A stretch of DNA of 64,000 nucleotides from Methanoculleus frigidifontis (lineage in GTDB: Archaea; Halobacteriota; Methanomicrobia; Methanomicrobiales; Methanoculleaceae). This document shows, in pieces, positions 16,699-22,866 of the stretch (the first letter of the stretch is position 1; each line of letters begins with the position of its first letter). Location of the stretch: NCBI RefSeq assembly GCF_030464345.1, contig NZ_VCYH01000010.1, positions 1 to 64,000 on the forward strand. Reading direction: 5' to 3'. The position numbers and the translations under genes were made by a program. The notes beneath the pieces were generated by a model that had not been told where the DNA came from, ran no database searches, and was given only the letters and a program-made list of their open reading frames with translations.

Positions 16699-17085
16699 TC
16701 AGGTGAGAGCCTGCATCCCGGACGGGTCCGCGGCCCATACGTGCCACGTAACAACCGCTCCGTCCGTTCTATCGCACGTAAACGCGTAGACCGGAAGGAG
16801 GTACTGCTGCGCGGAGGACCGATCCTCCATCCAGCAGCCGAGCGAGATATTGCGGACGAAGTGGATCCCGGGCGAAGAGATCGGTCGGATCACGAGGTCG
16901 TTTGCGCAGAGGCGCTGGTACGCCTGCTCCGGCGTTATGATCGGTACGTAGCGGTCGGGCTCCGGGTGAAAATACCCGATGCTGTTACTCACTGCCACCA
17001 CTTCGCCGCCTTCGCCGAGCTCGAAGGACGCCCGGGAGACGGGAGGGCTCAATACAGGATTCGGGCGGTGCTGCTTATATGTCAT
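16699..17085 (-). pseudogene. C-terminal remnant of a larger secreted/membrane protein
   Basis: About 128 residues with the pattern VVAVSNSIGYF...VPIITPEQAYQRL, GIHFVRNISLGCWMED, YLLPVYAFTC and VTWHVWAADP. This looks like the extracellular C-terminal domain of larger methanogen proteins (recognition from memory, moderate). The N-terminal part is missing; the frame runs into the promoter of the HicB-like gene at 17056-17119, which is itself a duplicated block. It is therefore read as a gene cut off by insertion or duplication. Confidence 0.45.
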
Positions 17086-17330
17086 CGGGTACCGTACTCT
17101 TACAAGGGACGCGATACAATGAACCGCCTGCAGTACCGTATCCTCCTCCGGACGGAGCCGGAAGGCGGGTATACCGTCACCGTGCCGGCCCGTCCCGGGT
17201 GCGTTACCTTCGGCGAGACCGTCGGCGAGGCGATAGCGATGGCACGGGAGGCCGCCCGGGTCTACGTCGAGGACCTCCGGGAGCAGGGCGAGAAGGTTCC
17301 CGCCGAAGAAGGGCTGCTTTGCGCGTACGT
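17056..17330 (+). repeat. Repeat copy A: promoter plus HicB-like gene
   Basis: About 275 bases, including the TATA run CTTATATGT and the whole 5' part of the HicB-like gene, are repeated at 21115-21380 with roughly 80% identity by eye. The duplicated block starts at the shared AGGATTCGGGCGGTGCT. Confidence 0.75.
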
Positions 17331-19273: not shown

Positions 19274-19507
19274 CAAAAAAGGAAATTCCGGCTCTGTTGA
19301 TAACCTGATCGGATGGGCATTGGATGGTGATGGAGCCACGGGTGCCCGGGGTCTGTCGACCCCCGCTCCGGCCTCCCAAAAGCCGCGCCCCACAGCGCAT
19401 GTTACTACCTCCCGAAGACCTCCCGCCGCCCACGCATGATCACCGGAGTGTCCGTACAAAGGTGCACGTGTACGTACGCAGAAAACAGACAGCAAGAGAA
19501 AAAGAAA

Positions 19508-19627
19508 ATGCCAAACGAACCCCGCGAAAACCGTATCCGGCGGCGACTCAACATCACCGTCTCCCCGGAAGTCCACGAGTACCTGAAAAAAACGTCGGCA
19601 ACATCAGCCGATTCCTGGATGCTTTGA
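19508..19627 (+). pseudogene. Frameshifted copy of the small ribbon-helix-helix protein gene
   Basis: The start reads MPNEPRENRIRRRLNITVSP..., matching the intact copy at 22617. A 2-base loss in the run of A after the Tyr-Leu-Lys codons shifts the frame, and the product ends early at a TGA after about 39 residues. Confidence 0.7.
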
Positions 19628-19684
19628 CAAGAGATGCTATTTCCGGGATTCAGCCCGCAATACTGATACGTTCACAAAATAAGA

Positions 19685-19728
19685 TGGACCGAGCGGGATT
19701 TGAACCCGCGGCCTCTACCATGCCAAGG
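19685..19728 (-). pseudogene. 3' fragment of tRNA-Ala(GGC)
   Basis: The minus strand carries 44 bases identical to the 3' half of the intact tRNA-Ala at 22795-22866 (anticodon loop, variable loop, T arm and acceptor strand). Beyond the anticodon stem the sequence diverges and cannot complete the cloverleaf. This is the usual footprint left at one end of an element that integrated into a tRNA gene. Confidence 0.85.
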
Positions 19729-19870: not shown

Positions 19871-20206
19871 CTACTCCAGCGCCAATAGGTCCTTCAAAAG
19901 AACGCTTATCGCTTCCATATCCTCGACCGAGCACCGCCCGGTCTTCCGGACGAAACGGTCTTCCGAGAGGGCAACTATCTGGAAGACCAGCGCCGCACTA
20001 TGAGAAGTCAGCCCGTTCTGTGAACTCTTCTCGATACCGTGGGTGTGCGGGAACGAAAAAGCCGCCGCGGTCGTCGTCAGCGGGACCACGATGGTCATAC
20101 CCCCGTAGGCGACGGCGAGCACCACGGCGGGTCGAAGCCCGCTCTGCTCGTGCCCCCGTGCGTCGGTGAGATCGACGAACCAGATATCGCCTCTGCTCCG
20201 GCGCAT
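19871..20206 (-). CDS. PemK/MazF-family endoribonuclease toxin
   Basis: A 111-residue protein with the MazF/PemK signature at the start, RGDIWFVDLTDARGHEQSGLRPAVVL (G-D-I/V-W...G-x-E-x-x-G-x-R-P-x-V-V), and the later strand TIVVPLTTT. MazF toxins cleave single-stranded mRNA and halt translation. The gene starts just 2 bases (20206 against 20208) after the Panacea-like gene ends, so the two are cotranscribed on the minus strand and are the obvious toxin-antitoxin candidates. No MazE/AbrB-type antitoxin is present, which makes the pairing unusual. Confidence 0.88.
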   Translation of the reverse strand: MRRSRGDIWFVDLTDARGHEQSGLRPAVVLAVAYGGMTIVVPLTTTAAAFSFPHTHGIEKSSQNGLTSHSAALVFQIVALSEDRFVRKTGRCSVEDMEAISVLLKDLLALE

Positions 20207-20207
20207 C

Positions 20208-20738
20208 CTACTGCCTCATCGACCGGATGCCTGCCCGCTGCCACTCCTGCAGCTCAGCGTTGAGCGCCGCCCTCTCTTCGGCGGTGGGGACGAAGAGGTA
20301 CTGCTTCGCCCGGTTGATACCCTTGACGATCTGCTCATTCGAGTAGAAGGATTTCATCCTCCGGACTGTCCGGTACGCCTGCTGCGGCGGTTGATGCATC
20401 TCGTAGGCCAGATACCCGTAGGTCGCCCCGATCTCAAGCAGGGACGGGCTTTTGCCGAAGAGGCCGGTGAGCCCGGCAACCGAATCCGCTTCGGCGGAAG
20501 AGAGCGTGCTTGCCGTCTCGCACCGGGAAAACTCGTCGGCGTGCTGGTAGTACTCCCGTGCAAGGTCCGGCGAGTAAGGTCCCCGGACGTAGAGGTGAAA
20601 CGGATACGCGAATTCGACGCCCTTCAGCTTCAGTAGGTAGACGAGCTTCTGGGCAACGAGCCGGTGCTCGAACTGGCCTGTATCCATCCGGAATCCCGCT
20701 TCCCGGAAGCAGGCAATGACTTTGCTTCTATCGTTCAC
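20208..20738 (-). CDS. Panacea/SocA-like (DUF4065-type) protein, candidate antitoxin
   Basis: A 176-residue protein whose central part, AQKLVYLLKLKG (residues about 29-40), PFHLYVRGPYSPDLAREYY and a run of alpha-helices, resembles the Panacea/DUF4065 domain ('L-Q-K-L-x-Y ... Y-G-P-x-S/V'). Panacea domains are known to neutralise many unrelated toxins in bacteria and phages. The assignment rests on pattern recognition and is moderate. The GTG at 20738 overlaps the wHTH stop by 11 bases, and the MazF start follows the stop after a single base, indicating one operon of regulator, candidate antitoxin and toxin. Confidence 0.55.
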   Translation of the reverse strand: MNDRSKVIACFREAGFRMDTGQFEHRLVAQKLVYLLKLKGVEFAYPFHLYVRGPYSPDLAREYYQHADEFSRCETASTLSSAEADSVAGLTGLFGKSPSLLEIGATYGYLAYEMHQPPQQAYRTVRRMKSFYSNEQIVKGINRAKQYLFVPTAEERAALNAELQEWQRAGIRSMRQ

Positions 20739-21069
20739 AGGTATCACCTTCGCAGCCCAGGAGTTTGCAGAGCCAGCCCCGGACACGCCGCCACTCGGCG
20801 AGCCCTTCCGGGGTGATGGCGTAGAGCTCCAGTTCCTTCCCTTCGAGCGTCACTTTCTCGGAGCGGAGGTACCCCATTGCAACGAGCTTCTTGAGGTTCG
20901 CGTAGAGCACGCCGTCGCTCAGGTTCAGCCCGGCCTTGAGCTGCCGTGCGGTGGCTCCGTCCTCGCCGAGCTCGGAGAGCGCCCAGAGTATCTCCAGGCG
21001 CACCCGGGAGATGAGGGTGCTGTTCACGTCCTCGGATTCTTCCACGATTGCTATCAGATCGTCAGGCAT
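20728..21069 (-). CDS. Winged helix-turn-helix transcriptional regulator
   Basis: A 113-residue DNA-binding protein: RLEILWALSELGEDGATARQLKAGLNLSDGVLYANLKKLVAMGYL is a classic wHTH (residues about 24-68), followed by a wing with Lys-Glu-rich strands (SEKVTLEGKELELYAITPEG). It resembles the archaeal HTH_34/PadR-like group. As the first gene of the three-gene minus-strand operon ending in MazF it is the likely autoregulator. A TATA-like run CTTTATCAC (minus strand, about 21108-21116) lies some 40 bases upstream of its ATG. Confidence 0.82.
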   Translation of the reverse strand: MPDDLIAIVEESEDVNSTLISRVRLEILWALSELGEDGATARQLKAGLNLSDGVLYANLKKLVAMGYLRSEKVTLEGKELELYAITPEGLAEWRRVRGWLCKLLGCEGDTCER

Positions 21070-21114
21070 AGGCGACTTTCAACTTTGAGTAGATGTTGGA
21101 GCGGGAGGTGATAA

Positions 21115-21380
21115 AGGATTCGGGCGGTGCTCCTTATATGTCAGCGGTACCTGTACTCATACAAGGGATGCGATGCGATGAACCACCTGCAGTACCGTAT
21201 CCTCCTCCGGAAGGAGCCGGAAGGCGGGTACACCGTCACCGTGCCGGCGCTTCGCAGGCTCGCGTCACCTTCGGGGAGACCGTCGACGAGGCAATAGCGA
21301 TGGCACGGGAGGCCATCGGGGTCTATATTGAAGATCTCCGGGAGAAGGGCGAAGAGATTCCGACCGAGGAAGGACTCTGA
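21115..21380 (+). repeat. Repeat copy B: promoter plus broken HicB-like gene
   Basis: The block mirrors 17056-17330 from the shared AGGATTCGGGCGGTGCT through TATA (CTTATATGT), leader and gene. It diverges mainly in the middle of the coding part. Confidence 0.75.
21178..21380 (+). pseudogene. Frameshifted HicB-like gene (copy B)
   Basis: The start MNHLQYRILLRKEPEGGYTV is nearly identical to the intact copy at 17119. After VTVPAL the reading frame breaks because of a one-base change in length near 21253-21265, and the second half (RVTFGETVDEAIAMAREAIGVYIEDL) continues in another frame to the TGA at 21378-21380. The product cannot be full length, so this copy is likely inactive. Confidence 0.8.
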
Positions 21381-21881: not shown

Positions 21882-22544
21882 CTAAAACCCAAACGCCAAC
21901 GAATCCAACATATATTTCGTCTTCTCGCGGCCGACTTCCTGGTAGACCGAGAGAAGATCCTCCATCGCATGTTTCCCGCCGACGATGTTCCAGAACTCAT
22001 CCGCAATAAGAACGGCCTCACCGAACGGCGTATAGTTCAGGGCAAAGTTCCAGGTATAGTCGCTCCGCTTCGGGCCGTAGGGGTTGTAGGCCATCGCGAA
22101 GTACGCCTGAACGGCGGGCCGGGATTCGCCGGCGAGCAGGTGGAACCAGAGCAGCCGCTGGGTGACCTCCAGGCACTGACCCTTGTTCGGCATGGGAGAC
22201 TTCATCTCAAAATAGTAGCGTCGCCCGTCTTTCGTCCGGATATACAGATCCGCCGTCGCTTTCAGCGGCACGAGGTCGTCGTCCCGCCTGGCACTCAGAA
22301 CGGCGTCGATCATCTCGTGAGTGCGGGCTTCTTGCCTTTCTGTTCGGCAGCACTCTCGAAGGCTGCAATCTGGTGCTCGATCTCGTCCATCGCGGCACGG
22401 CTGACGTAGCCCGTGAGAACGTGCCCTCGTTCGGCTTTTGCATGGTGCTGCAGCGCTATCAGCCTGGCACATCCCTCAAAGCTGTTCCCGAGGCTGGTGC
22501 TGAACCCTCGCTCGAACTCGTTGATGCGAAGAAACTCCGGCAGG
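21882..22544 (-). pseudogene. TdeIII-type restriction endonuclease, truncated and frameshifted
   Basis: The 3' part on the minus strand reads ATADLYIRTKDGRRYYFEMKSPMPNKGQCLEVTQRLL, AYFAMAYNPYGPKRSDYTW, EFWNIVGG and YQEVGREKTKYMLDSLAFGF, a close match to TdeIII-family type II restriction enzymes (E-x-K-S-P catalytic strand). The 5' part (STSLGNSFEGCARLIALQHHAKAERGHVLTGYVS) is in another frame; the two join near 22318, where the first frame stops. The N-terminal 40-60 residues are missing, cut by the direct repeat at 22545. No companion methyltransferase is seen. The enzyme is almost certainly dead. Confidence 0.8.
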
Positions 22545-22838
22545 ATGATCACCGGAGTGTACGTACAAAGGTGCAAGTGTACGTACACAGAAAACAGACA
22601 GCAAGAGAAAGAGAAAATGCCAAACGAACCGCACGAAAACCGTATCCGGCGGCGACTGCACATCACCGTCTCCCCGGAAGTCCACGAGTACCTGAAAAAC
22701 CGCGTCGGCAACGCCAGCAGATTCCTGGATGCTTTAACCAGAGATCCTATTTCCGGGATTCAGCCCGCGATATTTATTCTTTCGGAAAATAAGATGGACC
22801 GAGCGGGATTTGAACCCGCGGCCTCTACCATGCCAAGG
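22545..22838. repeat. Direct repeat, right copy, of the tRNA-Ala-linked island
   Basis: The same block as 19436-19728, here with an intact small ribbon-helix-helix gene and continuous with the full tRNA-Ala. It begins exactly where the restriction-endonuclease frame is cut. Confidence 0.9.
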
Positions 22839-22841
22839 TAG
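22617..22841 (+). CDS. Small ribbon-helix-helix-like protein overlapping tRNA-Ala antisense
   Basis: A possible 74-residue protein: basic start, strand RRRLHITVSP, then helix EVHEYLKNRVG and helix NASRFLDALTRD, the order of a ribbon-helix-helix DNA-binding domain. The last 15 residues (from about 60) read through the opposite strand of tRNA-Ala and are probably not functional. It could regulate the island or be a decoy of conserved flanking DNA. The left repeat carries a frameshifted version. A GAGA-rich stretch before the ATG may be its ribosome site. Confidence 0.5.
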   Translation: MPNEPHENRIRRRLHITVSPEVHEYLKNRVGNASRFLDALTRDPISGIQPAIFILSENKMDRAGFEPAASTMPR

Positions 22842-22866
22842 CGATCTCCCCCTGATCTATCGGCCC
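22795..22866 (-). tRNA. tRNA-Ala (anticodon GGC)
   Basis: A complete 72-base cloverleaf on the minus strand. The acceptor GGGCCGA pairs with TCGGTCC and includes the G3-U70 pair that identifies alanine tRNAs. The D stem is GATC/GATC, the anticodon stem CTACC/GGTAG holds the loop TTGGCAT (anticodon GGC), the variable loop is AGGCC and the T arm is GCGGG-TTCAAAT-CCCGC. The discriminator is A and CCA is not encoded. It is the integration target of the island on its 3' side. Confidence 0.97.

Follow-up and report, generated by a model that had tools for sequence, protein, structure and literature searches.

A predicted tripartite toxin-antitoxin operon of a methanogen, with a stand-alone DarG C-terminal-domain-like protein as the candidate antitoxin of MazF

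In mazEF, repression is carried out by the AbrB domain of MazE. A survey of type II systems gives AbrB, RHH, MazF/ccd-type, and XF1863 as partners of MazF (PMC2701414). Panacea antitoxins have varied partners, and their pairing with MazF/PemK-like toxins has been validated in bacteria; archaeal Panacea proteins and occasional third genes have also been described, the latter in a small fraction of PanAT loci (PMC8832971). Triplets of regulator, antitoxin, and toxin are known from omega-epsilon-zeta and paaR-paaA-parE (PMC4803016). In DarTG, the C-terminal domain of DarG occludes the active site of DarT, according to a passage of PMC11481870 that cites Deep et al. 2023.

We analyzed 64,000 nucleotides of Methanoculleus frigidifontis (the window) that contain three closely packed genes with the following features.

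20728 to 21069, minus strand: wHTH, winged-helix DNA-binding protein of 113 aa, likely autorepressor (PF13601, E 4.2e-18)
20208 to 20738, minus strand: MID, 176 aa, GTG start, stand-alone DarG-C-terminal-domain-like protein, predicted antitoxin
19871 to 20206, minus strand: mazF, MazF/PemK-family mRNA interferase of 111 aa, predicted toxin (PF02452, E 2.6e-20)
21075 to 21090, no strand assigned: putative operator, 16-bp near-palindrome, minus-strand letters ACTCAAAGTTGAAAGT
21110 to 21117, minus strand: possible TATA-like element CCTTTATC, farther upstream than the operator, read from the sequence, with similar letters in the family's aligned upstream regions

The genes are ordered wHTH (21069-20728), MID (20738-20208), and mazF (20206-19871), with an overlap of 11 nt between wHTH and MID (20728-20738) and a gap of 1 nt between MID and mazF (20207), and the initial annotation had described this arrangement correctly. 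Its assignments of the first gene to a winged-helix regulator and of the last to MazF/PemK are borne out by the Pfam matches (HTH_34 and PemK/MazF, respectively), and, as it had noted, no MazE/AbrB-like gene adjoins mazF. Because of the gene overlap and spacing, the three genes probably form one transcript.

We think it likely that this locus is a tripartite type II toxin-antitoxin operon in which a stand-alone DarG C-terminal-domain-like protein is the antitoxin and a separate wHTH protein is the repressor. MazF would be the toxin, a sequence-specific RNA endonuclease, and MID would replace MazE by binding MazF and blocking its active site. The wHTH protein would be translated first from the common transcript and would bind the near-palindrome in the promoter, thereby repressing the operon. 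The overlapping and abutting frames would couple synthesis of the three proteins. We infer the toxicity of MazF, the direct binding of MID to MazF, and the binding of wHTH to its site.

The locus resembles several known systems and differs from each. It shares a MazF/PemK toxin with MazEF/PemIK but has no AbrB-type MazE, and a DarG C-terminal-domain-like antitoxin and a separate wHTH gene are in its place. It shares with DarTG the fold and sequence profile of the DarG C-terminal domain (PDB 7yk3), but has neither the macrodomain nor DarT; the partner of MID is MazF, and a separate wHTH is added. As in PanAT, an antitoxin domain sits beside unrelated effectors, MazF/PemK-like ones included, and the two probably belong to one superfamily through intermediates (below), but MID falls below the PF13274 cut-off and the third gene is constant in MID loci. 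The regulator, antitoxin, and toxin are on three genes in the same order as in omega-epsilon-zeta and paaR-paaA-parE, whereas the protein families are unrelated and the MID system is archaeal. The initial annotation had proposed an undescribed type of toxin-antitoxin system on the grounds that regulation and neutralization are split between proteins. This proposal is not supported, as the split is known from those two triplets (PMC4803016) and Panacea with MazF/PemK-like toxins has been validated (PMC8832971). What is new in this well-supported predicted system is the antitoxin family and the constant wHTH, not the type. In the literature searched, which is part of the whole, we found no report of a free-standing DarG C-terminal-domain-like antitoxin for MazF.

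The product of mazF has the sequence features of a MazF/PemK toxin. In addition to the PF02452 domain, the active-site positions are conserved: in an alignment of 19 family members, E20, Q21, P42, and T44 were invariant and R25 was nearly so. We take R25 and T44 to be the catalytic residues. We considered whether the MazF antitoxin might be encoded by an open reading frame at about 19.5 kb that looks RHH-like, and rejected this; the frame is convergent, lies within a repeat, and has no close counterparts at other loci.

The predicted structure of MID is most like the C-terminal domain of DarG. The AlphaFold2 model from an alignment with 56 relatives had a pLDDT of 92.9 and a pTM of 0.83 (pLDDT was only 48 from an alignment of 12 close sequences). 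The sole strong matches to this model in the PDB (Foldseek) were 7yk3_D and 7yk3_B, with probability 1.00, a TM of about 0.5, and an E-value that is modest (0.018), and these two chains are the C-terminal domain of DarG in complex with DarT. By hhalign, MID matched the C-terminal part only of archaeal DarG (probability 95.6%, E 1.1e-8), and 19 of 22 distant MID relatives matched the NCBIfam DarG model (best E 1e-10); MID itself had only a weak DarG match across Pfam, NCBIfam, PHROGs, and PADLOC. As modeled, MID has the DarT-binding fold of the DarG C-terminal domain in a single domain of 176 aa, and the N-terminal ADP-ribosyl glycohydrolase macrodomain is absent. Nucleic-acid mimicry has been proposed for DarG but need not apply to MID, which is not acidic (19 D/E versus 23 K/R). 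We also considered a C-terminal tail of MID specific to MazF and do not claim one, as the tail did not stand out in the conservation figures.

MID is probably related to Panacea at the level of the superfamily. The initial annotation had called the middle protein Panacea-like and had suggested a structure or profile comparison, which gave the strong match to DarG described above and a weak direct match to archaeal Panacea (PF13274; hhalign E 0.0044, probability 8%). MID had no Pfam match, PF13274 included, even at E 1, and none of the 22 distant relatives matched PF13274, indicating that by Pfam score the resemblance does not extend to membership in that family. Intermediates, picked without overlap with the Panacea set, matched MID with an E-value of 4e-20, DarG with 4e-14, and Panacea with 1e-6 (E 0.23 for a control comparison of MID with unrelated MazF); some of them score with PF13274, either above the cut-off (L211 and L168) or below it (L212, L217, and L218). 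Because the intermediates link the three profiles, MID, the DarG C-terminal domain, and Panacea are, by profile comparison, probably members of one superfamily in which MID is nearer DarG. The nearest characterized relative of MID is the DarT-neutralizing C-terminal domain of DarG, and Panacea would be a more remote cousin.

The three-gene arrangement is widespread among related methanogens. By protein search, 20 of the family's 40 genomes had MID, and the MID profile matched 54 of the order's 199 genomes, with named relatives in Methanoculleus, other Methanomicrobiales, and Methanocalculus. Strong MID matches defined 51 distinct loci. Only two of these lack an upstream wHTH, and most have mazF downstream; where the locus was intact, mazF adjoined MID, and wHTH was upstream of MID in all but one. 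The search for the same triplet in other methanogens that had been suggested was therefore positive, and the order of separate regulator, antitoxin, and toxin genes is kept across five families of one order. As dozens of genomes from several families have this order with almost the same spacing, the arrangement is far beyond chance. Median dN/dS was 0.20 for wHTH (a value that may be affected where the end of the gene overlaps the MID frame), 0.16 for MID, and 0.12 for mazF, indicating purifying selection on all three. Two genomes (G040 and G065) have two or three paralogous copies each (L082, L083, L105, L106, and L108), some with a dead mazF, and at another locus (L115, 2074-2982) the mazF that comes after wHTH and MID is divergent in sequence and convergently encoded, an inverted toxin gene. 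Carriage of the system on phages or plasmids was not supported, as we found no MID relatives in viral contigs, phages, or plasmids.

Loss of genes from these loci was one-way. Of 50 MID loci that could be scored for the state of mazF, 33 had an intact gene (including the inverted one in L115), and in the others it was broken (10) or missing (7), so that MID was intact in 17 of the 50 despite a broken or missing mazF; for some of the lesions, which come from draft or metagenome assemblies, an error is possible. By DNA alignment the lesions were independent: 1-nt deletions at different places in L004 and L014, a 2-nt insertion in L015, truncation after codon 22 by foreign sequence in L003, interruption after about codon 51 in L018 (the other half is at a different contig end, L142), and nonsense codons. 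The foreign sequence in L003, downstream of MID, reads like hicA, as if one toxin-antitoxin system had landed in another. Conversely, all 34 full-length matches to the mazF subfamily (MazF profile, E below 1e-40, 199 genomes of the order) were beside MID; weaker hits (E 1e-12 to 1e-15, in G135, G157, G159, and G168) belong to another subfamily and were left out. Where MID was gone or truncated, mazF was degenerate, with a frameshift in the mazF of G046, where just the tail of MID is left, and fragments in G026, G027, G030, and G031. Loss of mazF with retention of MID is consistent with the signature expected of a toxin and its antitoxin. Together with the position of every full-length mazF match beside MID, it supports the reading, already put forward in the initial annotation, of a regulator-antitoxin-MazF operon whose antitoxin is the middle protein.

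A single protein both binds DNA and neutralizes the toxin in many type II systems, which raises the alternative that the real antitoxin is wHTH, by itself or together with MID, and that MID acts as a co-regulator or adaptor. The link of the wHTH subfamily to the operon is as tight as that of MID: the two are neighbors in 51 of the order's 54 loci. Because wHTH also persists after loss of mazF, the loss pattern alone does not separate wHTH from MID. However, one locus (L117) retains intact MID and mazF with neither wHTH nor the operator, which favors MID rather than wHTH as the neutralizer. Furthermore, the known toxin-binding antitoxin fold belongs to the MID model and not to wHTH, and in other classes the distant relatives of MID are paired with effectors and lack this wHTH. 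We consider a wHTH antitoxin improbable.

It is also unlikely, if somewhat less so, that the locus is strictly a PanAT system with MID as a divergent Panacea antitoxin. MID and Panacea have the QK..Y and GPYS motif in common, the PF13274-scoring intermediates bridge the families with the hhalign values given above, and the pairing of Panacea with PemK/MazF-like toxins has precedent (PMC8832971), but the lack of a PF13274 hit, the weak direct profile match, and the closer relationship to DarG in both profile and structure argue against this assignment. About a third of loci have a lost or broken mazF but kept the other two genes, and this could indicate instead a regulatory module of an ordinary kind, with MazF a domesticated RNase that is no longer a toxin and is accompanied by its partner and repressor. 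We give this little credence: intact mazF copies keep the active-site positions and a low dN/dS, and the patchy presence of the system in the family fits a toxin-antitoxin system better than a housekeeping one. The retention of MID and wHTH after loss of mazF could also mean that these two proteins have a further function, a point against the toxin-antitoxin reading that we favor.

The upstream regions of wHTH contain a likely operator. The 16-bp near-palindrome ACTTTMAACTTYRAGT is found on either strand, 3-74 nt before the wHTH start codon. With up to two mismatches, it was present in 40 of 46 upstream regions versus 1 of 2300 shuffles, with a consensus derived from these same regions, many of which are closely related. 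With up to one mismatch there is a single site in the 3.17-Mb genome, at 21075-21090, which is also the only one in the window, and it is a natural inference that wHTH would bind there. Repeated segments at 17052-17315 and 21111-21376 read like fragments of a hicB antitoxin gene; the second is apparently frameshifted and adjoins the operon promoter.

The surroundings of the triplet resemble a tRNA-borne island. A direct repeat of ~290 nt (19436-19728 and 22545-22838), which includes the 3' 44 nt of tRNA-Ala (22795-22866), brackets a 3.1-kb stretch with the triplet, and in another genome (G002) the triplet is ~3 kb from the same tRNA flank. In an empty-site comparison at this tRNA-Ala, a relative (G037) matched the right-hand flank only. 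A match to the TdeIII-type restriction endonuclease PF09520 at 21882-22472 (minus strand) covers profile positions 113-242, the C-terminal half only, and is probably a remnant.

Distant relatives of MID have different neighbors. MID-like proteins of ~160 aa occur in other classes of the phylum. Some have convergent neighbors on the opposite strand whose ends overlap or abut theirs and which look like PIN nucleases, confirmed by Pfam in L134 and with no Pfam hit in L126-L128; others have same-strand HD-domain neighbors (L121 and L136, and also L198 in the genome of the triplet) or convergent long neighbor proteins (L123-L125, with no hit in a Pfam scan of that in L125). Varied effectors are also found beside Panacea antitoxins, and we counted this for MID as an antitoxin. 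We suggest, tentatively, that stand-alone DarG C-terminal-domain-like proteins may be a second, largely unrecognized family of promiscuous antitoxins beside Panacea, common in archaea, that keep MazF in check here and do the same elsewhere for PIN nucleases, HD-domain hydrolases, and other proteins, and that DarG may be one macrodomain fusion of this domain. In the same genome as the triplet, an HD-domain protein overlaps a second DarG C-terminal-domain-like protein (L198, G000:C7:152000-156400), a pair that is perhaps an archaeal counterpart of B. subtilis YwfO-YwgA. Elsewhere, this genome encodes a genuine PF13274 Panacea protein and another member of the MazF family, at L197 (G000:C2:198000-202000) and L196 (G000:C3:79500-83800).

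If our reading is correct, MID would be a new kind of antitoxin for MazF, and the toxin-blocking half of DarG would be a free-standing module used against unrelated toxins. The DarG C-terminal domain and Panacea antitoxins would be merged into one superfamily, and the roles of the three proteins would be directly testable by means of the loci that lack the toxin in nature and of the promoter site, which is unique.
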